A stretch of 32,508 nucleotides of DNA from Cephaloticoccus sp. (GTDB taxonomy: Bacteria > Verrucomicrobiota > Verrucomicrobiia > Opitutales > Opitutaceae): positions 1 to 32,508 of the forward strand of contig JAURHD010000023.1 in the NCBI GenBank assembly GCA_030833445.1, written 5' to 3'. Below the pieces are notes generated by a model. That model was not told the origin of the DNA. It searched no databases and was given only the letters and a program-made list of their open reading frames with translations. Every line of letters begins with the position of its first letter. Position 1 is the stretch's first letter. A program made the position numbers and the translations under genes. Below are positions 9,139-31,315 of this stretch, piece after piece.

Positions 9139-10779
9139 ATGAAACGTCTCATCCTCGCCCTCACCGCATTGCTTGCAGTGCTACCCGGCCTGCGCGCCGC
9201 ATCCTTCGATTCAACCATCAGCGCCGTCACCGTCTACACCGACCGCGCCGTCGTCACCCGCACGGCTACCTCCCCCCTCACCGCCGGCATCAATGAACTG
9301 GTCTTCACCAACCTGCCCGCCGGTCTGCTGGATCAATCGCTGCAGGTCAGCGCCACCGGCAGCACCGCCGCCACGATCCTGGACGTCAGTGCAAAGCAAC
9401 TCTTTCAAGCCGCCACGCCCGATCCGCGCGCCAAGGGACTCGAGTCACAGATCGAGCAGCTGCAACAAAAAGACCGGACCTTGGTCGACCGTAGCAACGT
9501 GCTGCGCGGTCAGAGTGATTTGATCACGCGTCTCCAAGCCAGTGCCGTCGCCCTAGGCACCGGTGAAAAATCCGAACGTCCCAATCTTGATGAAGTGAAG
9601 AATGTGCTCACTTACGGGCAGGATCAGTTACTCGAAATCGCGGCCAGCATTCAGGATATTGAACAAAAACGCACGGAACTGTCGGAGCAGATCAACGCCT
9701 TGCAAAATCAACTCGGCAGCCTGCGTAACCCGGGCAACAAGAGCGTGAAAACCGTTGTCGTGCGGGTGCAGGCGGCCGATGCGGGCACGCTGACCCTCGC
9801 GCTGAACTACACCGTCGGCGGCGCCAGCTGGACCCCCGGCTACGACGCCCGCGTGCTCACCGGCGACAAGGCCCTGCAACTCGGCTACTTCGGCAACGTC
9901 CGCCAAAACACCGGCGAAGACTGGAACAACGTCGCCCTCACCCTCTCGACGGCCCAACCGTCACTCGGCGGCAGCGCACCCGACTTGGGCGTGTGGAATT
10001 TGGATGTGTGGCAACAACCGGTTCGTCCCGCTCCAATGGTATCCGCGATGGAGGCGAGCAGCGACAAAGACTACGGTTATCTGAAAGCCAATGCCGCTGC
10101 CCGCACGCGCATCGGCATGGAAATACAGAGCGGCGTCGCCCAAGCCACCGTCGATACCGCCGCGACCAGCGCTACCTTCAAGATCGCCGTGCCCACCAGC
10201 ATTCCGAGCGACAACTCGGTGCAAAAGGTGCCGGTCACCACCATCGACCTCAAGGCGGCCATGACCTATGCGACCACGCCGAAGCTGCGTGAAGCCGCTT
10301 TCCTCAGCGCCAAAGTATTCAATAACTCCGATTACCCGCTGCTCCGCGGTGCCATGAACGTGTTTCTCGACGGCACCTTCGTCGCCACCAGCCGCCTCGA
10401 TACCACCATGCCGGGCGAGAAGTTCGATCTCGCACTGGGAGCCGACGAAGGCATCAGCGTGAAGCACCAGCGGATCAAGAAATTCGCCGAGGAAACCGGC
10501 GTCTTCAGCAAGGACAACCGGATCACCTACGAATATCTCATCACGATCCAAAACAACAAGCGCACGACCGAGCGGGTCATCGTCACGGATCAGGTGCCGA
10601 TCTCCCGCAACGAGAAGATCGTGGTCAAGGTGTCGGCCCCGGCCGAGAAAGAGATGAAACCCAACGCCGAGGGCAAACTCAAGTGGACGCTCGATCTAAA
10701 GCCCGGTGAGAAGCGTGAACTGACCGTCAAGTTCACCGTCGATTATCCGACCGACATCAAGGTGGACGGTTTGGAATAA
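9139..10779 (+). CDS. MuiA-family (DUF4139) exported protein
   Basis: This 546-residue protein has a signal peptide (MKRLILALTALLAVLPGLRA) and then the DUF4140 N-domain with the diagnostic SAVTVYTDRAVVTR and ELVFTNLPAGL. A glutamine- and leucine-rich coiled coil follows, about residues 95-195 (ESQIEQLQQKDRTLV to INALQNQLGSL). The DUF4139 beta-rich C-domain begins near 215 (LALNYTVGGASWTPGYDAR) and runs to the final DYPTDIKVDGLE. Relatives are called mucoidy inhibitor A after the Salmonella/Escherichia name. A molecular activity has not been settled. Location is probably periplasmic or surface. It begins 67 bp after the esterase on the same strand and ends at a strong terminator. Confidence 0.9.
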   Translation: MKRLILALTALLAVLPGLRAASFDSTISAVTVYTDRAVVTRTATSPLTAGINELVFTNLPAGLLDQSLQVSATGSTAATILDVSAKQLFQAATPDPRAKGLESQIEQLQQKDRTLVDRSNVLRGQSDLITRLQASAVALGTGEKSERPNLDEVKNVLTYGQDQLLEIAASIQDIEQKRTELSEQINALQNQLGSLRNPGNKSVKTVVVRVQAADAGTLTLALNYTVGGASWTPGYDARVLTGDKALQLGYFGNVRQNTGEDWNNVALTLSTAQPSLGGSAPDLGVWNLDVWQQPVRPAPMVSAMEASSDKDYGYLKANAAARTRIGMEIQSGVAQATVDTAATSATFKIAVPTSIPSDNSVQKVPVTTIDLKAAMTYATTPKLREAAFLSAKVFNNSDYPLLRGAMNVFLDGTFVATSRLDTTMPGEKFDLALGADEGISVKHQRIKKFAEETGVFSKDNRITYEYLITIQNNKRTTERVIVTDQVPISRNEKIVVKVSAPAEKEMKPNAEGKLKWTLDLKPGEKRELTVKFTVDYPTDIKVDGLE

Positions 10780-20459: not shown

Positions 20460-21611
20460 TTACTTGAGTTCTTCAGCCACCACCCGCAAGGCCGCCACCG
20501 CACGGGCATCCGGCGTGCATCCCAATCCGGGTGCCGTCGGCAATTTGATCACATCGTCCGTGGGCTTGAGTAGATCCCCGAACAAACTGTCGGCGAGAAA
20601 TTGTGGGCCGTTGAGCGCACAAGGCCGGGCGATACCACTCCAGGCAAAAAGATGCAGGGCCCCGAGCAGGGAAAAATCCGGGTCGGTCAGACCCGAACCC
20701 AATACCGTGAGCCCTTTGGCACGCAATTGATTGACGATCTGCACGGAAGGCCAGAGTCCGGCATTGCGCGCTGGCTTCATCGCGATGCCATCCATCATGT
20801 CGAGGGCGATGAATTCCTCGGCCACTTCCGGACCGACAATCCCCTCGTCCATCAGCACCGGCAGCGCACCCTGTTTTTTCAAATCGCGATAACCGCGAAT
20901 CCGCGTCGGCGCGAGTGGCGACTCCAACACGTCCACGCCGACATCGCGCAGCTTGGGTGCGATTGCCAATGCCTCGACCGGCGTGTAACCGGTATTGGCA
21001 TCGGCCCAGAGAAATCCATCGGGCGCAAAAGCGCGCACTTTGCGGGCCAGTTCCAAATCATATTCGGCCGACTGTGGTGCACCCACCTTGATGTTGAAGT
21101 TGCGGTAGCCGCGGGCGCGGCCCTCCAGCATTTGCTGCTCCGCGTTCTCCAGCTTCGGCGAAGCGACGGTCCAGCTGAGGAGGATTTCTTCCCGGACGCT
21201 CGCAGGCTCACCAAAGAGTTGCCACGCCGGCACGCCGCGCTGTTTGCCGACGAGATCGTGACACGCGAGATCGATCGCCGCTTTGCACAAGGGCTGCCCG
21301 ACCGAGAAGGCGGGTCGAATGGCCGTGTTCATCGCCGCATGCAGCCCCGCAAAATCCGCCGGGTCACGACCGAGCACCACTTCGGCCAGATAAAACTCCA
21401 ACGTGGTCAGCACGCTCTCGACCGTTTCATAGGTCCAAGTCGGCACCGGCACGGACTGGCCCCAACCCGTCATCCCATTTTCATCGGTCAATCGCACCAA
21501 AACTGACGGCCGCCTAATCCGACCATCCGGGCCGGGTTTGAAAAATTTGAATTCGCCGGCAACCGCGTAATCGAAGCGACCTATCTCGACTCTTATGATG
21601 CGGCTCATGTT
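20460..21611 (-). CDS. Enolase-superfamily (mandelate racemase/muconate-lactonizing) enzyme
   Basis: This 383-residue enzyme abstracts a proton alpha to a carboxylate, as in sugar-acid dehydratases, racemases and cycloisomerases. Visible features are the capping domain with ENGMTGWGQS, Lys175 in FNIKVG (the first Lys of the K-x-K motif is Asn), metal ligands in WADANTGY, LESPL and LMDEG, and AMKPARNAG with the Lys on the opposite barrel face. This Lys/Lys arrangement matches the muconate-lactonizing/dipeptide-epimerase subgroup rather than the His-Asp mandelate-racemase subgroup. The ATG at 21611 fits the family N-terminus; an ATG 42 bp upstream would read through part of the intergenic repeat. 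The exact substrate is unknown. Confidence 0.9.
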   Translation of the reverse strand, partial: NMSRIIRVEIGRFDYAVAGEFKFFKPGPDGRIRRPSVLVRLTDENGMTGWGQSVPVPTWTYETVESVLTTLEFYLAEVVLGRDPADFAGLHAAMNTAIRPAFSVGQPLCKAAIDLACHDLVGKQRGVPAWQLFGEPASVREEILLSWTVASPKLENAEQQMLEGRARGYRNFNIKVGAPQSAEYDLELARKVRAFAPDGFLWADANTGYTPVEALAIAPKLRDVGVDVLESPLAPTRIRGYRDLKKQGALPVLMDEGIVGPEVAEEFIALDMMDGIAMKPARNAGLWPSVQIVNQLRAKGLTVLGSGLTDPDFSLLGALHLFAWSGIARPCALNGPQFLADSLFGDLLKPTDDVIKLPTAPGLGCTPDARAVAALRVVAEELK

Positions 21612-21621
21612 ATCCAAATTG

Positions 21622-21684
21622 GCCACGGAGACGCGAAGACACCGAGTTGCCAATCCCCACTCCGTGTCTTGGTGCCTCCGTGGC
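21622..21684. repeat. Intergenic hairpin of the CCACGGAG...CTCCGTGG type
   Basis: Arms 21622-21647 and 21659-21684 match in 22 of 26 positions as inverted repeats around an 11-nt loop. They contain GCCACGGAG and CTCCGTGGC ends. On the minus strand it lies 14 nt after the sugar-isomerase-like gene stop and ends 10 nt before the next start. It could terminate transcription, attenuate, or be an interspersed mobile repeat. Similar CACGGAG-rich spacers are widespread in bacteria. Confidence 0.7.
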
Positions 21685-21698
21685 TGATATTATTTTGA

Positions 21699-22595
21699 TC
21701 AAATCGAATGCGGATTGAGCGCAGGGTTGCGTTGGAAACGTTCGTGGATGGAGCGGAGATAATCGTAGGAGCGCTTGGCCGTCAGATAGGCATCGCCGCC
21801 GAGATCATAGGCTTGGGAAACGATCGGGCCGGTGTAACCCTGCTGCCAAAGCAAACCGAGGTTGGCCGCGATATCGATGTTGCCATCGTCGATCGGGCGC
21901 GAGCGGAACGGGGTGGCGGGTTCACGCCAGCCGCTGAGCACGGCGTAGTAGCCGAGGGCTTCCATGCCGGGCTGCGCCATGAGTTCGTGGAAATCAGGTT
22001 CGCCTTGGTGAAAGAACGCGTGGAAAGCCGCGATGCCGGGCTTGATCGTCTTGGCCTCCGCCTCTTTCAGTGCGCGCAATTGCGCCGCCGAGGTATCGAT
22101 CATGAACCAGATGTGGTTGTAGAGGTTGGCGCTGAGACCGAGCTGGGTCACGTGCGCGTCGATTTCGCGCAGCATGCGCACGGTGCGCTCCCAGTGCCGC
22201 GCCTCGGCCTTGGCGGAACCAGCCTCGCGATAGTCGGGCGTGCCGTTCTTTCCGGGATTGCTCGCGATGGTGTAATTGACGAAGGCCTTGGGACTCATCG
22301 CCGCGAGGCGGTCGATCATGCGTTTGGCGCGGGTGAGCTCAGCATCGAATTTGTCGTAGTCGTCATCGTTGATGCCCTTGGAAACGATATACATGCCGGT
22401 GGATTTGAGACCGCTGGCTTTGAATGCTGCCGTCGCCTCATCCCACGACTTGTCGTCATCCGGCTCCATCGGGTGGAACTCGTAGCCGTCGTAGCCGATG
22501 TCGGCGGCGATGGCCAAGCGCGTGCGGAACGGATAGTGCCGCCGGTGCATGGCGAAGTGGTTGTTAAACAGAATGAGCTGGTTGGGAATGGCCAT
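21699..22595 (-). CDS. Xylose-isomerase-like TIM-barrel (sugar phosphate isomerase/epimerase family)
   Basis: A 298-residue protein with the fold of xylose isomerase/AP-endonuclease-family-2 proteins. Seen are the N-terminal strand NQLILFNNHFAMH, RLAIAADIGYDGYEFHP (the Glu that usually binds metal), LKSTGMYIVS, the NLYNHIWFMIDTSAAQLRAL segment with a His/Asp metal site, and a final GPIVSQAYDLGG. Such proteins isomerise or epimerise keto sugars and cyclitols. The gene starts 9 bp after the Gfo/Idh/MocA gene (same strand), a pairing often seen in inositol- or sugar-catabolic clusters. The exact substrate is not deducible. Confidence 0.88.
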   Translation of the reverse strand: MAIPNQLILFNNHFAMHRRHYPFRTRLAIAADIGYDGYEFHPMEPDDDKSWDEATAAFKASGLKSTGMYIVSKGINDDDYDKFDAELTRAKRMIDRLAAMSPKAFVNYTIASNPGKNGTPDYREAGSAKAEARHWERTVRMLREIDAHVTQLGLSANLYNHIWFMIDTSAAQLRALKEAEAKTIKPGIAAFHAFFHQGEPDFHELMAQPGMEALGYYAVLSGWREPATPFRSRPIDDGNIDIAANLGLLWQQGYTGPIVSQAYDLGGDAYLTAKRSYDYLRSIHERFQRNPALNPHSI

Positions 22596-22604
22596 GACGA
22601 AAAA

Positions 22605-23672
22605 TTAAGCGGGAATGGTAACAGCCTGCTTCGTGCGGGCGGATTCAAGCAGAGCGTCAAAGATGCCGTGGATCTTCACGCTGTTCGCCATGGTGCCGGT
22701 GGTGGCGCGGTTTTCCTGGATGGCACCGGCGAGATCGAGCAGCGAGTGCATCAGTGTGTCATCCCAGCCCGGAGCGGCCTCGGGCAAGATCGTTTCTTTA
22801 ATCTCTTCCGCCCCGACATAGGCGTAGTGGTGGAGTTGCTGCTTGTCGCCCATCGGCAGAAAGCAGAGATCGAGGCCGGCCTTGCGACCGCGGACTTCCA
22901 CGTTGTGGCGGGCGGGTCCGTGTTCGGCGGCGCGGCGCTCCCAGTGAATCGTCAAGCCGTTGTCGCAAATGATCTCGGCCGCAAGTCGACCATCCACATC
23001 GAGGCAGGGCGGCACGCGCTCGGCGGTAAGCGGAAAGTAATTGCCCGTGGTGCCGAAGACCACGCGCGGTTGGAAAAGATCACCGAGGATAAAGGCCAGC
23101 CAATCGAGATCGTAGGGACCCCAGTCGAAGGAGATGCCGCCGCCGTTCTTGGCGGGCTCGTTGCGCCAGGCCGGAAACTTCGTGCCGACCTTGTAACCAC
23201 CGGTCACCTGTTCGAAGTGCACGCGGTAAACTTCGCCGAGGTCACCGCCGGCGATCAGATCGCGGGCTTTGCGGGCGGTGCCGGTATTGTGATAGCGTGA
23301 CGAACAGCAATTGACCTTGAGCTGCGGGAACTCGCGATTCACCGCCATGATATCGAGCACCTCCTGCCGGGTGAGGACGAAAGGCTTCTCGCAGCACACG
23401 TGTTTGCCGGCGCGCAGCGCATCGATCGTCATCGGCTTGTGCAGGAACGGCGGCGTGGCGATGTAAACCGCTTGGACCTCCGGGTCGGCCAGCAGCTGGT
23501 GGTAGTCGGCGTAGATGTTCGAGGTGCCGGCCGTTGCGGCCAGTTTCTGCGCCGCCTCCGGATTGACGTCGGCCACGGCCACGACTTTGGCCGGGCTGCC
23601 GGAATTGAGTTTTGATACGATCAGGTTGGCGATTACGCCCGCGCCGATGACGCCGAAACGAACTGGTTCCAT
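22605..23672 (-). CDS. Gfo/Idh/MocA-family oxidoreductase
   Basis: This 355-residue sugar or cyclitol dehydrogenase-like protein has a canonical Rossmann motif (FGVIGAGVIANLIV), the strand end AVADVNPEAAQ, AVYIATPPFLHKPM, and GKHVCCEKPFVLTRQE with the catalytic E-K-P Lys near residue 97. A C-terminal substrate domain contains GGGISFDWGPYDLDWLAFILGD, the G-x-x-x-D-x-G-x-x-x-x-D active-site segment. It is the first gene of the minus-strand unit isomerase-like/enolase-superfamily/GH99-like. Divergence from the other Gfo/Idh/MocA at 14.5 kb is extensive, so they are not recent duplicates. Confidence 0.93.
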   Translation of the reverse strand: MEPVRFGVIGAGVIANLIVSKLNSGSPAKVVAVADVNPEAAQKLAATAGTSNIYADYHQLLADPEVQAVYIATPPFLHKPMTIDALRAGKHVCCEKPFVLTRQEVLDIMAVNREFPQLKVNCCSSRYHNTGTARKARDLIAGGDLGEVYRVHFEQVTGGYKVGTKFPAWRNEPAKNGGGISFDWGPYDLDWLAFILGDLFQPRVVFGTTGNYFPLTAERVPPCLDVDGRLAAEIICDNGLTIHWERRAAEHGPARHNVEVRGRKAGLDLCFLPMGDKQQLHHYAYVGAEEIKETILPEAAPGWDDTLMHSLLDLAGAIQENRATTGTMANSVKIHGIFDALLESARTKQAVTIPA

Positions 23673-23820: not shown

Positions 23821-24864
23821 CTACGACCCGGCTGGAACGGCGGTCGGTAGCCGCAGCGTGGGTTTCCAAACCCAGCGACTTTCAACCAGCACGACCCGGG
23901 GATAGGTCGGCAGCCCATGCTGGTTGGTTTGCAGGAGGGAGACGGCAAAATCCACCGCACTGGCCCCGAGCAAGTCGGATTGCTCGTCGATCCCGGCGAC
24001 CGGACTCGCCTCTCCGTCGCGTGACAACACCGCAAACCCGATATCCTCGGGCACTTTCAGCCCAAGTTTTTTGAGGAGGGACAAGGGGCTGTCGGACGCC
24101 GCGAGGATGCAATCCGGCTGATACTGATCCAGCCACTGCGAAAAATTGGTCGGCGGGATCTCGGCGGTAAACAACGGCGGGATTCGCTCCGCCTCCGGCT
24201 GACGCATCTGATCCGCAAGATAAGCTCCGAGGGTATTCACATTCGTGCGGACATCCGCCTCGTGATACATCTGCAGCCCGATGCGCCGGTAACCGAGTTG
24301 GCGCAGTTCCCGCAGGGCCAGTTTCATCGAATAAGCCTGATTAAACGCCGCGCGATATGTTTTCGGAGTGATGATGGAATAACCGATCGCGACGGTAACG
24401 AACTGCTCCCAATCGAGCTCCATAAAATGATCGGGCAGCGGCATCAAGGGGGGCAGGACCAAACCGCGAATACCCCGGGCCTGCAAAAGGGCGGTCAGGC
24501 GTTTGCCCGACAATCCGCCGGCCCGCACATCAATCGGCTCCAGTTTAAAACCGAGATCCTTGGCCCGGGCCTCAGCTGCGAAGTGGGTCGCGCGTGATCG
24601 ATGATTGGTCACATAATCCTTCGGCAAATCATAAGTGTGCAGATAACCAATCAACCCGGCGAAGCGACTTTGCTTCGAATGTCGGTAGGACGACAGGGCC
24701 GAGAGCATGGCATCCTGAACATAGCCCAATTTCTGGGCGGCCAACCGGATGGCATTGGCCGTTTCTGGCAAGATGCGTGGATCACCCCGAATGGCCAAGC
24801 CCACGGTCGTAAAGTGGTAACCGGTGGCCTTGGCGATATCACGAAGCGTCGGGCGGGCTTGCAT
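23821..24864 (-). CDS. LacI-family transcriptional regulator
   Basis: A 347-residue regulator. The N-terminal helix-turn-helix is PTLRDIAKATGYHFTTVGLAIRGDPRI with the hinge helix ETANAIRLAAQKLGYVQDAML. The usual S-V-S/T-x-V-S-R-x-L is replaced by a Verrucomicrobia-style HFTTVGLAIRG. The ligand domain is periplasmic-binding-protein-like (LQARGIRGLVLPPLMP, YRRIGLQMYHEADVR, PDCILAASDSPLSLLKKLGLKVPEDIGFAVLSRDG). It would sense a sugar or sugar acid, and it lies downstream of the Gfo/Idh operon promoter on the same strand (148 bp gap). The palindrome 46 bp upstream of its start may allow autoregulation. Confidence 0.93.
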   Translation of the reverse strand: MQARPTLRDIAKATGYHFTTVGLAIRGDPRILPETANAIRLAAQKLGYVQDAMLSALSSYRHSKQSRFAGLIGYLHTYDLPKDYVTNHRSRATHFAAEARAKDLGFKLEPIDVRAGGLSGKRLTALLQARGIRGLVLPPLMPLPDHFMELDWEQFVTVAIGYSIITPKTYRAAFNQAYSMKLALRELRQLGYRRIGLQMYHEADVRTNVNTLGAYLADQMRQPEAERIPPLFTAEIPPTNFSQWLDQYQPDCILAASDSPLSLLKKLGLKVPEDIGFAVLSRDGEASPVAGIDEQSDLLGASAVDFAVSLLQTNQHGLPTYPRVVLVESRWVWKPTLRLPTAVPAGS

Positions 24865-24959: not shown

Positions 24960-27158
24960 TTATGGCTTGGGCCGGATGAGCAGCTGACCACTTCGGTTCA
25001 ACGCGGCCTGCGCGGCAGCTGGACCCAGCCTTTGCCGCAAACTATCCCGGTTCGCTACCGACTCGGTATCACCGGAGCGGGCGGCAAGTTCAAACCAAGC
25101 CAGTGCCTCAACCGCATCCGCAGGAACGCCCTGACCATTGGCATAATACACGCCCAGTTGATATTGCGCGGCCACGTTCCCCTGCTCTGCCGCCCGGCGA
25201 AACCATTGTGCAGATTCAGCCATGTTTGGCGGCACGCCGGCTCTTTGTGCATAGATCACCCCGAGGTTCAGCTGGGCATCCACCCAACCTTGCTCCGCCG
25301 CCAACCGGAACCAGTGGATCGCTTGCGACCAATCCGGAGACATCAGACGATCATCGGAATAAAGGGCGCCCAAGTTGAACTGAGCGCTGGCCAAGCCCTG
25401 ATCCGCCGCCTGTTGAAACCAGCCTCGGGCCGCGGTGAGATCCTGTGGCACGCCCCGACCGGTCAGGTAACAGGAACCCAGATAGTTCTGGGCGGAAGGG
25501 TTGCCGTAGTCTGCCTGCACCCGGGCTGCATCGACCGGCGTCGCCACTTGGCCGATCCGTCCTTCAGGATACACGACGGCCATGGGTCCATAATCGTCCA
25601 AATATTCCTTGTGCCAGTAATCACCCGTCGCCCGCCAAGTTTTCAGGTCGGTGAATTTGAGCTGATAACGGCGCATGCGAATCAGTTGGGCCGGGCGGTC
25701 CGGAAATGGATTCTCCTCAAAGAGCCCCGTAATCCGTGGATCCCGTTCGATGAGTTTAAGCGCGATCAAGGAGAAAGTGGAGGTGCGCTCCGGCAGGGAT
25801 GCGATCACCTGTGCGGTCGCCTCAAAGCGCAGAAAGCGTGGGGCGATGAAATCGCAGATCTCATCCGTGGCTTGAGGGAAATTGGGATAACGGTAGGCGC
25901 GCCACGTCACCCCGCCATCGTTGGAACCGACAAATTCCACCCCATAGCGGTTGGGGGTGAATCCGGCGTAGAGCGTGTAGGCGTTCGCACTACGAAAAAT
26001 CCGGAAGGACTGGCTCACTGGCCGATTCGTATCATCGGACAAATCGACGGTGCCGAGCGTGATGACGAGAAACACATCATAAATTGCCAAACCAAAATGC
26101 GCCCAGAGTGCACCGCGCAAAAGATAGGATTTCCAGCGCGCAATCGCCGGCCGCGTGGTGGCCCGAACCGCATTTGCCAGATAATCGCGCAATCGAGCCG
26201 GTCGCAGACGACCAGCCAGATTCTGCAACATCTGGTCATCCAGCAGCACCAAGCCCAGGCCCATGGCCGCAAAATTCAGCCAGCCGAAATTGGCCGTCAG
26301 TTGAATTCCCAGTTGAAAAATCGTCCAGACCACCAAGGCGAACCACCGGCCACGACGGCCGGCGAATATCATCAGCACGGGCGCGAGAATTTCGGCCGCA
26401 AACGTCAGCGCGATTTCCAACACATGGTAGGTATGCGACATCTGATGGTCGAAGTATCCGAGGATGGTCGGAAACGGCGCCGTCTCATACATGATGTCCA
26501 TCGCCGTGAGATTCTGCCAATGCACATCGCCGGAGATGATCTTGAAGAGCCCCGACTCAAACATCACGCGGAAGAGCAGCCACCGCACCATGAACAAGGC
26601 GATGGGGCGTGGTGGCGCGTGCTGGCCCAATCCGGGCCGCAGACCACCGGGCGCATAGGGAATGCAGAGCAGCGCCACCTCGAGGATCAACTGATCCATC
26701 TGCGTCGAGGAGAAGATCGTGAAGACCGTGACGAAGGAGAGAAAGATGATCCAGCAAGCGGTCAGGGCCCAACGCGGAGCGATATTCAGCACCACCGCCA
26801 CCGCCGCGGCCAGACCGGTCCAACTGAGCAGCGTGAACATCCCCGCCCCGCTGTTGATCCAGAGCAAACTCGGGGCCCGAAAAAACGCCGTGATCGCATC
26901 CGGAAATACCGCCCGCAAATGCTGCAGCAACGCGGAGGCGGGCACGATCCCATCGGGACCAATGAGTGCCTGCCCTTCCCGCACGATATTCCAAAAAGCG
27001 AAAACATAGACCAACCCGACGGCACGCAGCACCAACCAGCGCGGCCAGAGATGGGTGGCTTCACCACCCAATCCGGCGAACTCCCCCGCCTGCCGCCACA
27101 ATGCCTGAACAACTCGCCGGGGTGGATTCATAGCCGTTTCATTTGATGACCGGGACAT
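24960..27158 (-). CDS. Lipase-maturation-factor-like membrane protein fused to Sel1 repeats
   Basis: A 732-residue protein with about eight to ten membrane segments in its first ~380 residues (WPRWLVLRAVGLVYVFAFWNIV, LLSWTGLAAAVAVVLNIA, ALTACWIIFLSFVTVFTIF and later spans). The LFRVMFESGLFKIISGDVHW block resembles the 'R...SGv.KL..gd..W' core of lipase maturation factors. A soluble part (about 385-525) contains GGVTWRAYRYPNFPQ and FIAPRFLRFEATAQV, matching the family's C-terminal 'W..Y....P....fi.P...R..' motif with altered residues. Residues about 545-710 are four or more Sel1-type repeats (e.g. ASAQFNLGALYSDD, WFRLAAEQGWVDAQLNLGVIY). Sel1 repeats bind protein partners. The starts ATG 27158 and ATG 27131 are both possible. 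Function in bacteria is unknown. Confidence 0.83.
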   Translation of the reverse strand: MSRSSNETAMNPPRRVVQALWRQAGEFAGLGGEATHLWPRWLVLRAVGLVYVFAFWNIVREGQALIGPDGIVPASALLQHLRAVFPDAITAFFRAPSLLWINSGAGMFTLLSWTGLAAAVAVVLNIAPRWALTACWIIFLSFVTVFTIFSSTQMDQLILEVALLCIPYAPGGLRPGLGQHAPPRPIALFMVRWLLFRVMFESGLFKIISGDVHWQNLTAMDIMYETAPFPTILGYFDHQMSHTYHVLEIALTFAAEILAPVLMIFAGRRGRWFALVVWTIFQLGIQLTANFGWLNFAAMGLGLVLLDDQMLQNLAGRLRPARLRDYLANAVRATTRPAIARWKSYLLRGALWAHFGLAIYDVFLVITLGTVDLSDDTNRPVSQSFRIFRSANAYTLYAGFTPNRYGVEFVGSNDGGVTWRAYRYPNFPQATDEICDFIAPRFLRFEATAQVIASLPERTSTFSLIALKLIERDPRITGLFEENPFPDRPAQLIRMRRYQLKFTDLKTWRATGDYWHKEYLDDYGPMAVVYPEGRIGQVATPVDAARVQADYGNPSAQNYLGSCYLTGRGVPQDLTAARGWFQQAADQGLASAQFNLGALYSDDRLMSPDWSQAIHWFRLAAEQGWVDAQLNLGVIYAQRAGVPPNMAESAQWFRRAAEQGNVAAQYQLGVYYANGQGVPADAVEALAWFELAARSGDTESVANRDSLRQRLGPAAAQAALNRSGQLLIRPKP

Positions 27159-27164
27159 GGTGGG

Positions 27165-27863
27165 GTGAATCACGCGGGCGTGTTCAACCCCAGCCTAGAT
27201 AATCGCGAAACGGAAAGTCACGACTTTCGCCAACTGCCCGATGGGTTAATTTTGCAATTCCGGCTGCTCGCCCAAGGGACCATCACTTTCTATGAGCGAG
27301 GCAATGGGTTCCGCCGAAGCCACTGTGGCCACGACTTTGAACAAATCCCCGCGGCGGTCCAACCGCGGCGTTACGGTGCCGGCGGTCTGTATCGCTCCCG
27401 CGGTATCGATACCGACCTGACTTGGACCCCGAACAGCAACCTCCAGATGGTGTTCAACTACAAACACTCGCTGGAAGCCAACATTGTCTCGGATCCTTCG
27501 GTCAACCCGAACACTCCCGGCACGCTGGATTACCAGAAGAAGTTCCTCCGGCCGCTCTCCCAAGCTCCGGAGAATCGCTTCAACTTGGTAAGCAAATACA
27601 ACTTCGACTCCGGCTCGCTGAAGAATGTCAGCGTCGGTGCGGCGGTGCGTTATAATTCAACTTATTCCATCACCAATGCGGGCACCTATGATCTGTGGGC
27701 TCCGGCCGAAACGCTCTTCGATTTCTTTGTGAGCTACCGGACCAAACTCATGGGCATCCCCGCTGAGTTGAAGTTCAACATGAACAACGTCACCGATGAG
27801 CGAAACGACTACACGTGGGGTGATGGTCGCACCTACTTCGGCACGGTGAAGTTCAGCTTCTGA
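27165..27863 (+). pseudogene. TonB-dependent receptor, C-terminal remnant
   Basis: Only the last part of an outer-membrane TonB-dependent receptor is present. From about 27393 the frame reads SRGIDTDLTWTPN, NLQMVFNYKHSLEANIVSD, PENRFNLVSKYNFDSG, SVGAAVRYNSTYSI and ends in FNMNNVTDERNDYTWGD and YFGTVKFSF. These are the final beta strands with the terminal aromatic residue needed for barrel insertion. The first ~75 codons before this show no family resemblance, and no plug, TonB box or signal peptide precedes them. The gene has lost most of its 5' part. It is divergent from the lipase-maturation-factor gene, and the junction lies in the ~240 bp between 27165 and 27390. Confidence 0.75.
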
Positions 27864-27946: not shown

Positions 27947-30900
27947 TCAGTCGCGCGACAAGCGCAGGCTGATAATTTCGTAAGGCTCGTAATTCAGAGT
28001 GCGGCCCCGCAGCGGCTGGCTCATCGATTCACCCAGCAGGTTGATTTTTTGGGCACGCCAGCCCGCGGCCAGTTTTAATTTCGTCGAACCGCGCTGGCCG
28101 CTCACTTCATGCAGGCGGAGAACCCAACTCTGCTGACCAGCAGAGCGGCCCTCGGGCTTGGCCCAGTGCGGGATGAGGGTTTCGCCCCCCTCCAGACCTT
28201 GGAACGCCGCCGCCATCGGTTTGCCGCGATAAGTGACGGGGTGAGTAAACAAGGTTTCCGTCAATACCGCCGGTTGCTCGGCCCGCAGGGCCGTCGCATC
28301 GTATGAGCCGATCGCGAGTTCGATCACATGCCGGCCCAGATCGGTGTAGATGGTGGACGGTTTCGGCAAACGGCTGAGATGCACCGGATACGCCTTGGCG
28401 TGTTCTTCAAAGCCAACGTGACGCGGTGTGCGCAAAAGCGTAACCCCCAGATTGCCGTCGCGGCAGCTAAGCCCGTATTTCGCCGCGGTGACGACAAACA
28501 AACCGGCGCGTTCTCCTTCGTCACTGACCGTGGCCCAACGACTCATCGGCCATTCCCACATTGCCTCGACTTCGCGAGAAGTGGCCAATTGCGGCCGCAA
28601 CACGCTGCCGAACGGGGTGCCACAACGCACTTCGCGGCCGCGATAGTTCGTGGGGAAATGCAGCTTCAACAACGCATCCGGCTCCTGCCAGTCCAGTTCC
28701 ACAGTCAAGCGCAGCACGCTGCCACCGGGTTCCAACCCATAACGAATCGACGCAGTGCTCGCCGCCCCTATTTTGCGTGTAACCGTGAGACCGGATTTGT
28801 CCGCCACGATCTGCGCCGGACCACGCGCCGGTTGGCCCAACGACAACGATGGCCGATCAATATCCCAGGGCCCGAAGTTGGCCGGCTGCTCGGGATACAC
28901 CACCAATTCACCAGCGCGCGGCGCCAGTTCCACCTTGGCCCCCGCCACGGTCAGCGCCGCCAAGTTGCCGCGCGCATCCAGTCGCGCCTCGACGATTCCA
29001 TTGCTCACGGTGCGGCCCTGGACGACTACCGCCGTAACCTCTTTCACCACCGCGTCGGCGATGCTTACTCCCGAAAGCGGTGGTAATTCCAACAACTTCC
29101 CGCCCACCACGGTGCGTCGTGTGACCGGCAGCGGATTAAAAACACAGCGTTCGCCCTTGGCCGTGGTCAGAGCCTGCGCTGCCTGCGCGCTTTGCTCACG
29201 AGTAAGCTTCGCCAATTCAGGCAGCCCTTCAGCGTAGACCTCGGGAATCGAACTGCCCGGAATGTAATCATGGAACTGCGCGAAGACCATGCGCCGCCAG
29301 GCGTGGTCGAGGCCGGCATCAGGTTTGCGACCCAAGACCACCAAGGCTGCCTCTCGCAATTGAAGGGCCTGCTCTAATTCGCGGAAGCGTGCCTTGACCG
29401 CGCTTTGGGTGGTGAAGGTGCCGCGGTGATATTCGAGATAAATTTCGCCGTCGAGTGCCGGCAGTTTGGCGCTTTTTTCCGCCAGCCGATCGAAGAACGC
29501 CTCGGGTTGATCCCACTCGAGTTCGGGCAGTCCGCGCAGGGCGGTGAGCCGCCGGGCGCGTTCGCACATCTCATCGCTGGGACCGCCGCCACCGTCACCC
29601 CAGCCGTTCGGCATCAGGGCCTCGTCGTGGATATCACCCTGCTGGTTTTGATTGGCCACGGCACGCAGTTGTTCAACGGACACCGTGTTGTTGAATTGCA
29701 CGCCTTGAGTCACATGACTGACCACCGCGTGACCGCCGGCGCCGCGCCAGACAAAGCTGGAATGCGGAAACCGATTGACCGTGTTCCAAGTGGTCTTGGT
29801 CGTGAAAAAATAATCCACCCCGCTCAGTTTCATCAACTGGGGCAGGCACGCGCTGAAACCGAACAGGTCCGGCAACCACAGGATACGCGAACGGCGACCC
29901 GAAAGTTTTTGAAACCCCTTCTGCCCGAGGATGAAGCTGCGGGCGAGCCCTTCGCCACAGGCCACATGCGAATCACTTTCCACATACATGCCACCGGTCG
30001 CTTCCCATTGGCCGGAACGCAACCGCGTCCGCACCGCCCGCATCAGTTCGGGTGAACGCCGCGCCACGGCCTCGTAGCTGGCGGGCTGCGAGTAGGCGAA
30101 ACGAAACTCCGGATAACGCGCCATCAAGCGGTTGGCATTCGCGAAAGTGTGCACCGCCTTGCCTTCGCCAGTTTGTTCGTTCCAGAGCCAGACCAGATCG
30201 AGATGCGAATGTCCGGTGAGCGCGGCCCGACTCAAGGGTGCAGCATCGCGGGCCGTTGCATAGACGTTAACCAGTGCCTGGCGCAATGCGCCCACTCCGT
30301 CGGTATCAAACGCATCGAGCGCGGTATCGAGCCCGCGCAGCAGTCGGCGGTAAAGCGGCGATACCTCCGTCAAGGGCGGTTGCACGGTCTGACTGAACAG
30401 TTCGCGCGGCACGCCGGGAAATTCACGCGCGCGCAGATCGAGCATGTAATCATACAGGCAGTTCAGATCGTGATAAGCGTGCCAAGCCTCGTCATCCCGC
30501 TGTAACAATTGCGCCCCACGGAAAACATTACCCTCAGCACCGAGGCCTTTCGCATCCGGATGCCAGATTGCGGCCTGCACACACAGGCTCTCCACCCAGA
30601 CTTCACGCGTGCCGACGGGCAGTTCACAATACCGATGCGCCACATCGAATCCGAAATACGGCACCCCATTGATATGCAGGGTCGCCTCGCCCTGCTCGTC
30701 CCAGTGTAGCCAGCGCGCAGACCCGGCGGGAATTTTTACGCGGCACCACCGTTGATCATACAACTGCCCCCAACTCTCGCCAGCCAGCACCGGTTTACGC
30801 GGCAGCTTTTTCGCGAGAGTCAAAGAGATGTGATCGGGTCGCGTGGCGGTGGCCTCCACCCGCACAGGTTGCGGGTTACCCCAAATTATTTCGGCCAGAC

Positions 30901-30961
30901 GGGCTACGCCGCGCTGGGTTCGTAACGGGGTGAGCTGAACCAGAGGGTTGATCGGCAACAT
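27947..30961 (-). CDS. GH38 alpha-mannosidase
   Basis: This 1004-residue zinc enzyme removes alpha-mannose from glycans. An N-terminal beta-sandwich of about 230 residues precedes the catalytic domain, with zinc ligands His251 and Asp255 in GHSHLDLVW, the nucleophile Asp365 in LWLPDLFGF, and His564 in FAQFHDYIPGSS. A GMYVESDSHVACGEGLARS block matches the family's E-x-D-x-x-x-x-x-G-E-S-x-x-R segment. Long C-terminal beta domains follow. Upstream codons (to 31069) are open but lack family character; ATG 30961 gives the usual N-terminus, so there is no signal peptide. The enzyme is probably cytoplasmic, acting on imported oligosaccharides. Downstream it shares the strong terminator with the receptor remnant. 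Confidence 0.95.
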   Translation of the reverse strand: MLPINPLVQLTPLRTQRGVARLAEIIWGNPQPVRVEATATRPDHISLTLAKKLPRKPVLAGESWGQLYDQRWCRVKIPAGSARWLHWDEQGEATLHINGVPYFGFDVAHRYCELPVGTREVWVESLCVQAAIWHPDAKGLGAEGNVFRGAQLLQRDDEAWHAYHDLNCLYDYMLDLRAREFPGVPRELFSQTVQPPLTEVSPLYRRLLRGLDTALDAFDTDGVGALRQALVNVYATARDAAPLSRAALTGHSHLDLVWLWNEQTGEGKAVHTFANANRLMARYPEFRFAYSQPASYEAVARRSPELMRAVRTRLRSGQWEATGGMYVESDSHVACGEGLARSFILGQKGFQKLSGRRSRILWLPDLFGFSACLPQLMKLSGVDYFFTTKTTWNTVNRFPHSSFVWRGAGGHAVVSHVTQGVQFNNTVSVEQLRAVANQNQQGDIHDEALMPNGWGDGGGGPSDEMCERARRLTALRGLPELEWDQPEAFFDRLAEKSAKLPALDGEIYLEYHRGTFTTQSAVKARFRELEQALQLREAALVVLGRKPDAGLDHAWRRMVFAQFHDYIPGSSIPEVYAEGLPELAKLTREQSAQAAQALTTAKGERCVFNPLPVTRRTVVGGKLLELPPLSGVSIADAVVKEVTAVVVQGRTVSNGIVEARLDARGNLAALTVAGAKVELAPRAGELVVYPEQPANFGPWDIDRPSLSLGQPARGPAQIVADKSGLTVTRKIGAASTASIRYGLEPGGSVLRLTVELDWQEPDALLKLHFPTNYRGREVRCGTPFGSVLRPQLATSREVEAMWEWPMSRWATVSDEGERAGLFVVTAAKYGLSCRDGNLGVTLLRTPRHVGFEEHAKAYPVHLSRLPKPSTIYTDLGRHVIELAIGSYDATALRAEQPAVLTETLFTHPVTYRGKPMAAAFQGLEGGETLIPHWAKPEGRSAGQQSWVLRLHEVSGQRGSTKLKLAAGWRAQKINLLGESMSQPLRGRTLNYEPYEIISLRLSRD

Positions 30962-31315
30962 GGGCGACGACTTTCGATTTACTTCATTGGTGCGGCAATC
31001 CCGATCTCCAAGACCAACGCGCTTCTCAGCCAACTTCGTGGGATAAAATAATCCCGGCGGATACAACACATACGATGACCCTTCATTAATTACTTATATG
31101 AACTGGGCCTGTTAGTCTGACGTAGCACGGGACGTTTTATCGGGTATTTTTAATTGATTTCGTTGTTTATAAATAACTTATACAATTCATTTTCAATCCA
31201 GTTTACTTGCACAATAGGACCCTCATTCCTCCGTCTAAATAAATATATGTAGTGCGTGTAACTGATCAGCGTCACTGCGACGTCTGTTACTCCGACCGAA
31301 ATTCTCATCTCACCC
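30962..31315. promoter_or_regulatory. Long AT-rich divergent spacer between mannosidase and LuxR-type gene
   Basis: Some 350 bases separate two divergent genes. The part 31080-31260 is markedly A/T-rich (ATAAATAACTTATACAAT and AAATAAATATATG stretches), unlike the GC-rich genes. It also holds the palindrome GGGAT-AAAATA-ATCCC at 31040-31055. I see no credible gene in it. It should carry both promoters and perhaps binding sites for regulators, but specific boxes cannot be assigned. CATATAAGTAATTAATG on the minus strand (about 31086-31102) is a possible -10 region for the mannosidase. Confidence 0.4.

Follow-up and report, generated by a model that had tools for sequence, protein, structure and literature searches.

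What might a bacterium do with a membrane protein that resembles the lipase maturation factors (LMFs) of the animal endoplasmic reticulum (ER), and what is to be made of the array of Sel1 repeats with which that protein ends? The question is posed by a gene of Cephaloticoccus sp. that lies in the 32,508-nucleotide stretch of DNA analysed here (the window), which takes up contig C15 entirely; the genome measures 2.9 Mb and is 97.75% complete. The gene is one open frame on the minus strand, with no internal stop, encoding a protein of 732 amino acids (P0001); an ATG at 27158 is taken as its start (a GTG at 27173 is the alternative) and it ends at 24960. Its parts, with the evidence by which each was placed, are as follows.

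24960..27158, minus strand: LMF-Sel1 fusion gene, 732 aa (open reading frame and Pfam)
26055..27050, minus strand: membrane domain, residues 37-368, nine long membrane helices (AlphaFold2 helices and charge bias)
26223..26708, minus strand: LMF1 domain (PF06762), residues 151-312 (Pfam)
26541..26543, minus strand: codon of Lys206, aligned with the active base Lys218 of gamma-carboxylase (conservation and hhalign; weak alignments)
25584..25988, minus strand: LMF1_C domain (PF25179), residues 391-525, predicted periplasmic (Pfam and charge bias)
25398..25505, minus strand: Sel1 repeat 1, residues 552-587 (Pfam)
25290..25397, minus strand: Sel1 repeat 2, residues 588-623 (Pfam)
25182..25289, minus strand: Sel1 repeat 3, residues 624-659 (Pfam)
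25077..25181, minus strand: Sel1 repeat 4, residues 660-694 (Pfam)

An earlier note, made from the letters of the DNA, had likened the front of this protein to lipase maturation factors and counted at least four Sel1 repeats behind it, and Pfam profiles bear out both readings. The search that it proposed as a check detects the LMF1 domain at 141.7 bits against a curated cut-off of 27 (E 3e-41), and LMF1_C follows at 67.4 bits against 34.2 (E 1.7e-18), so the resemblance extends to both halves of a maturation factor. Sel1 (PF08238) scores 130.2 bits against 30.7 (E 1.6e-38), with four stretches over the cut-off from residue 554 onwards. The note knew of no description of such an architecture; in agreement, no title on a bacterial LMF-Sel1 protein was found among the matches listed in the open-licence literature, and the protein is a variant of the LMF family that is undescribed as far as searched.

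Is the fusion a property of this one contig or of a lineage? The census of architectures that had been suggested was made with PF06762 in overlapping samples at the level of the family, the order and the phylum, with matches in 60 of 200, 22 of 177 and 38 of 387 genomes, respectively. Eighty-five distinct LMF frames were compared, and a tree of 82 (three cut frames excluded) falls into two parts, split by a long branch (1.31, support 100/100): a canonical part of 21 frames, none of them with Sel1, and the clade of the window's protein, with 61 rows, of which 53 bear Sel1 and eight do not (L060, among the eight, is truncated at the end of its contig). When 60 members of this clade were scanned, LMF1 and LMF1_C were present in all 60 and Sel1 in 53, a share that is overstated because several in-family matches were left out of the comparison and some of these, at 530-560 aa (e.g. 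G015:C22 and G184:C94), are too short for the fusion. Sel1-bearing members occur in at least 35 numbered genomes of the family, the window's own included. Outside the family Sel1 is found in none of the 42 LMF frames examined (46 order- and phylum-level loci minus four in-family ones), a set that leaves out about ten listed matches and in which the frames of L103, L125 and L130 are cut or short; two of those four in-family loci carry four Sel1 repeats. A scan of genome contigs for exact peptide patterns, a method that detects close relatives only, gave four loci, two with Sel1. The window's genome itself has another LMF gene, on contig C11, which bears two Sel1 repeats. Because the same architecture recurs in 53 relatives (the overstated share of 60 given above), from many assemblies, and in the C11 gene, the possibility that a sequencing error had joined two genes, raised in the earlier note as one way to refute the reading, is ruled out, and the LMF-Sel1 architecture is real and conserved.

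Conservation of an architecture need not mean that its parts work together. Sel1 repeats are common in bacteria, so their joining to an LMF may mean little; on one account an LMF of this family acquired them a single time and they serve only to tether or stabilise it, without functional coupling. We consider this unlikely. The confinement of Sel1, in our sample, to one clade of one family speaks for it, as does a repeat number that drifts from 1 to 4, some members having no repeats, but the array is retained in many deeply split members, its presence and absence on the tree require no fewer than 3 changes, and it is kept by both of the paralogous groups into which the two genes of this genome fall. 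The window's LMF falls among 24 rows that form one group (support 98/91), and the C11 copy among 28 that form another (98/92). Furthermore, two LMF genes are neighbours at six loci, every pair drawing one member from each group. Four pairs lie on the same strand (L049, L053, L054 and L066), with gaps of 15-17 bp in three and, in L066, an overlap of the called frames in which one start is over-extended; the pairs of L057 and L069 are convergent (gaps of 1 and 27 bp); in L069 one gene of the pair, the second, is a cut frame assigned to its group by best match. Such pairings, one from each group, suggest that the two kinds of LMF may work together.

On which side of the membrane the repeats lie was computed by taking the membrane helices from the structural model and averaging loop charges over 60 sequences. 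Loops placed inside hold 13.3 lysines and arginines against 3.0 aspartates and glutamates over 95 positions, whereas those placed outside hold 4.8 against 8.1 over 102. This bias fits an N-terminus inside the cell, with LMF1_C and the Sel1 array likely on the periplasmic side, which is the answer that this modelling gives to the topology check put forward in the earlier note. The same computation reproduces a trait of the LMF family, a multi-pass membrane protein with its C-terminal domain outside.

What manner of membrane protein this is may be sought in its predicted fold. Modelled in full by AlphaFold2, the protein reaches a confident mean pLDDT of 90.1 and a pTM of 0.85; in Foldseek its matches are led by Sel1 proteins, with vitamin K-dependent gamma-carboxylase (GGCX) entering at rank 18 (E 8.5e-5), and VIA-align ranks GGCX first (Z 24.0). 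With the core modelled by itself (residues 1-544, 81 sequences, pLDDT 92.5), the first 15 Foldseek rows from the PDB are all GGCX, 14 of them at E ≤0.001 and the best at 1.9e-5, before E rises to 0.16 in row 16, and VIA-align gives 16 GGCX entries Z-scores of 15.7-23.4, the next chain reaching 7.9. The best GGCX match, 9wf3_A, has a Z of 23.4 over 400 residues at an rmsd of 6.6, and the fold match spans residues 18-540. The LMF core is accordingly modelled, and predicted, as a GGCX fold, which the earlier note had not noticed, albeit one with an rmsd of 6-7 Å in most rows and Foldseek TM-scores of 0.31-0.44; such values, with TM-scores below 0.5, imply that the domains have either shifted in their placement or diverged a long way. 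A sequence search of the PDB returned no LMF structure, matching only the Sel1 part, and no title on a fold shared by LMF and GGCX appears among the matches listed in the open-licence literature.

If the fold is that of GGCX, part of the chemistry might be as well. Passages of PMC12589487 describe Lys218 of GGCX as the base that takes a proton from vitamin K hydroquinone, and they place His160 in the glutamate pocket; they also make luminal, and the seat of the substrate-binding domain, the side that corresponds to the predicted periplasmic face of the LMF. Among 125 LMFs, Lys206 is kept in 124, Glu160 and Trp214 in all, and residue 155 is aspartate or glutamate in 124. A bacterial homologue of the vitamin K-dependent gamma-carboxylases (VKGC) from the same family (L143:1444-2856, plus strand; E 2.1e-34 to human GGCX) provides the register, its Lys182 standing at human Lys218 as counted on the printed alignment. 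Profiles of LMF and VKGC align weakly in hhalign: Prob is 25.3% with a single sequence and 1.4% with four, and the default runs span Prob 1.2-25% and E 0.0008-0.04. Settings were varied over 20 runs, of which 12 reach residue 206; each of these 12, weak as it is, sets Lys206 against that same VKGC lysine and Trp214 against a VKGC tryptophan, while the other eight, including five of the eight global runs, miss the residue.

From this arises the idea of a GGCX-like, quinone-using membrane enzyme or redox factor, whose Lys206 would act on menaquinone hydroquinone and which would change clients held by Sel1, for example in their disulfides, rather than carboxylate glutamate. Gamma-carboxylase function proper is rejected. 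No histidine is invariant or nearly so across 81 LMFs, while VKGC homologues keep His160, so carboxylation by an LMF appears unlikely; PF05090 (HTTM) has no match on P0001 at E up to 1, and VKOR occurs in only one of 12 genomes tested and is absent from the window's, an absence compatible with other quinone reactions. As for the wider idea of a quinone enzyme, we regard it as rather doubtful, though with a real chance of being right. The fold matches and the near-invariant lysine argue for it, and passages of PMC7197872 and PMC12781119 put LMF1 forward as a candidate carrier of reducing power into the ER. Partnership with redox domains also occurs in the family: of ten LMFs chosen for an N-terminal CxxC, in most cases, or for a long N-terminus, a selected set that gives no frequency, nine begin with a DCC1-like thiol-disulfide oxidoreductase domain, which is over the Pfam cut-off in eight of the nine and below it in L110 (the others are L005, L020, L100, L102, L104, L132, L139 and L141). 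Against it stand the weak profile alignments, the large rmsd and low TM-scores, the lack of a conserved histidine and of an HTTM match and the scarcity of VKOR, and a shared fold does not prove shared chemistry. A cysteine pair for a thiol relay was sought in the LMF core and none is conserved: in the clade of the window's protein, Cys135 is present in 59 of 60 and Cys165 in 41 of 60, only Cys135 reaches 90%, and canonical LMFs lack it.

The surroundings of the gene bear on what it might serve. In the window it is accompanied by the following genes.

27947..31069, minus strand: GH38 alpha-mannosidase, upstream gene in the same orientation (Pfam; 72.8% identical in L087)
27165..27863, plus strand: TonB-dependent receptor remnant (its residues 61-232 match just the C-terminal end of receptors ~1000 aa long)
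23821..24864, minus strand: LacI-type regulator (below Pfam cut-offs; absent here in L087)
22605..23672, minus strand: Gfo/Idh/MocA oxidoreductase (Pfam and comparison with L087)
21699..22595, minus strand: xylose isomerase-like TIM barrel (Pfam and comparison with L087)
20460..21653, minus strand: mandelate racemase/muconate lactonizing enzyme-like protein, MR/MLE (Pfam and comparison with L087)

Along the direction of the gene the order is thus GH38, receptor remnant (on the other strand), LMF-Sel1, LacI, Gfo/Idh, TIM barrel and MR/MLE. In L087, from the same genus, GH38, LMF-Sel1, Gfo/Idh, TIM barrel and MR/MLE follow in the same order, without the LacI gene and the remnant, at identities of 72.8% (GH38), 70.3% (Gfo/Idh), 70.6% (TIM barrel) and 82.1% (MR/MLE), with 59% in the LMF region. 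The window's LMF gene stands in a sugar-catabolism operon that includes a GH38 alpha-mannosidase and is kept in a second genome of the genus. One could take the protein for a local helper of that operon, for instance a membrane-borne sensor or transport scaffold for mannose-containing glycans, and the order shared with L087 is in keeping with this, but other members of the clade lie in different surroundings (GlyRS and GH2, CstA, a multihaem cytochrome, PhyH), and we find so local a role very improbable. The receptor remnant had zero matches in a Pfam scan and is 26-37% identical to full receptors that stand beside other LMF-Sel1 genes.

Neighbours across the clade were called with a simple gene caller, L045, L081 and L086 being dropped as their LMF gene had no match among the called genes. 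Of 100 immediate neighbours 11 are TonB-dependent receptors (cluster c1), as against 12 of 328 genes farther away (p 0.009, by a statistic that ignores relatedness among loci of which several are near-copies), and receptors are numerous in these genomes, from at least 8 to at least 65 matches each in 12 genomes. A small lipoprotein (c8) accounts for 6 of 100 immediate neighbours and 2 of 328 farther genes (p 0.003, relatedness again ignored). By Pfam, the 100 immediate neighbours include eight TonB-dependent receptor Plug domains, five GH2 and four Coa1, other families reaching at most three. The earlier note's proposal of a membrane-bound chaperone or maturation platform is plausible; its suggestion that the protein serves exported hydrolases fared poorly here. 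The GH38 enzyme has no obvious signal peptide at its N-terminus, inspected by eye; no lipase is among the nine window proteins scanned, and neither lipase nor esterase is among the best 25 of 139 matched Pfam families of the 100 neighbours, where Plug is the commonest and GH2 comes after it. Two further observations concern these neighbours. The c8 lipoprotein is encoded at L003:1574-2110, L049:6302-6808, L054:7699-8205, L057:11955-12443 and L079:6903-7409 and 9720-10211; a BamE-like identity, seen by eye only, was set aside, Pfam and NCBIfam being empty for the one or two members scanned. A Coa1-like membrane protein adjoins LMF genes with a single Sel1 repeat in L046, L047, L050 and L056.

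Set beside known systems, the protein shares with LMF1 both Pfam domains and, by computation, a multi-pass form with its C-terminal part on the side that resembles the ER lumen, but it is bacterial, adds a C-terminal Sel1 array and has no known lipase client. With SEL1L and other Sel1-repeat proteins it shares four canonical repeats (the predicted solenoid matches mouse SEL1L at Z 17.7), whereas here they are joined to a membrane maturation factor and there is no ubiquitin ligase system. It resembles GGCX (PF05090) in how the membrane domain and the beginning of the outer domain are predicted to fold, and perhaps in a lysine that weak alignments put at the place of Lys218; it differs in lacking an HTTM match and, among its conserved columns, a counterpart of His160, and in carrying Sel1 where GGCX has C-terminal domains of its own. 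Like the bacterial DCC1-like LMFs (PF04134 and PF06762) it fuses an LMF core to a partner, which there is an N-terminal oxidoreductase domain and here a C-terminal Sel1 array. Sha et al. reportedly showed in 2014 that SEL1L binds the LPL-LMF1 complex. Passages of PMC8319833 and PMC8966663 have lipoprotein lipase chaperoned in the ER by LMF1 and by SEL1L, and say that LMF1 associates with oxidoreductases and maintains the redox potential of the ER.

The reading that we prefer, tentatively and at a little under an even chance, is that of an LMF-family protein of the inner membrane which assists maturation (folding) and carries its own Sel1 docking array. A nine-helix core of predicted GGCX fold would sit in the membrane with its N-terminus inside, and LMF1_C and the Sel1 solenoid would hang in the periplasm. 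The solenoid may keep exported proteins, or a partner chaperone, close to the core, which would aid the held proteins to their active fold ahead of release, so that one chain would act as LMF1 and SEL1L do in the animal ER. Candidate clients are the secreted or outer-membrane proteins of carbohydrate-uptake loci; action on proteins, docking by Sel1 and the identity of the clients are all matters that we infer. We count in favour of this maturation factor the constancy of LMF1 and LMF1_C and the frequency of Sel1 in the clade, the charges that place the N-terminus in and the C-terminus out, and the neighbouring TonB-dependent receptors, as well as, by analogy, the luminal substrate-binding domain of GGCX and the fact that LMF1 and SEL1L are both said to chaperone lipoprotein lipase. 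We count against it that the enzymes of the window's operon (GH38, Gfo/Idh, TIM barrel, MR/MLE) look cytoplasmic, that the receptor next to the gene is a remnant, that the receptor enrichment ignores relatedness and that Sel1 repeats are widespread among bacteria. Seven of the 60 clade members have no Sel1, so the core works without it.

A bolder proposal would unite these strands: LMFs, animal LMF1 among them, would descend from the GGCX fold as quinone-using redox enzymes with the invariant lysine catalytic, and the Opitutaceae would have fused to theirs the docking partner Sel1, one chain doing the job of LMF1 and SEL1L. It is a speculation that we think improbable as a whole. The GGCX-like fold is the part likeliest to interest specialists, for together with a near-invariant lysine that weak alignments put at the place of the active base it offers a specific, testable idea of how LMF1 matures lipases. 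The natural fusion of LMF and Sel1 points the same way as the common role of LMF1 and SEL1L in lipase maturation, and, if Sel1 docks clients, the array would be a handle for finding the targets of bacterial LMFs.
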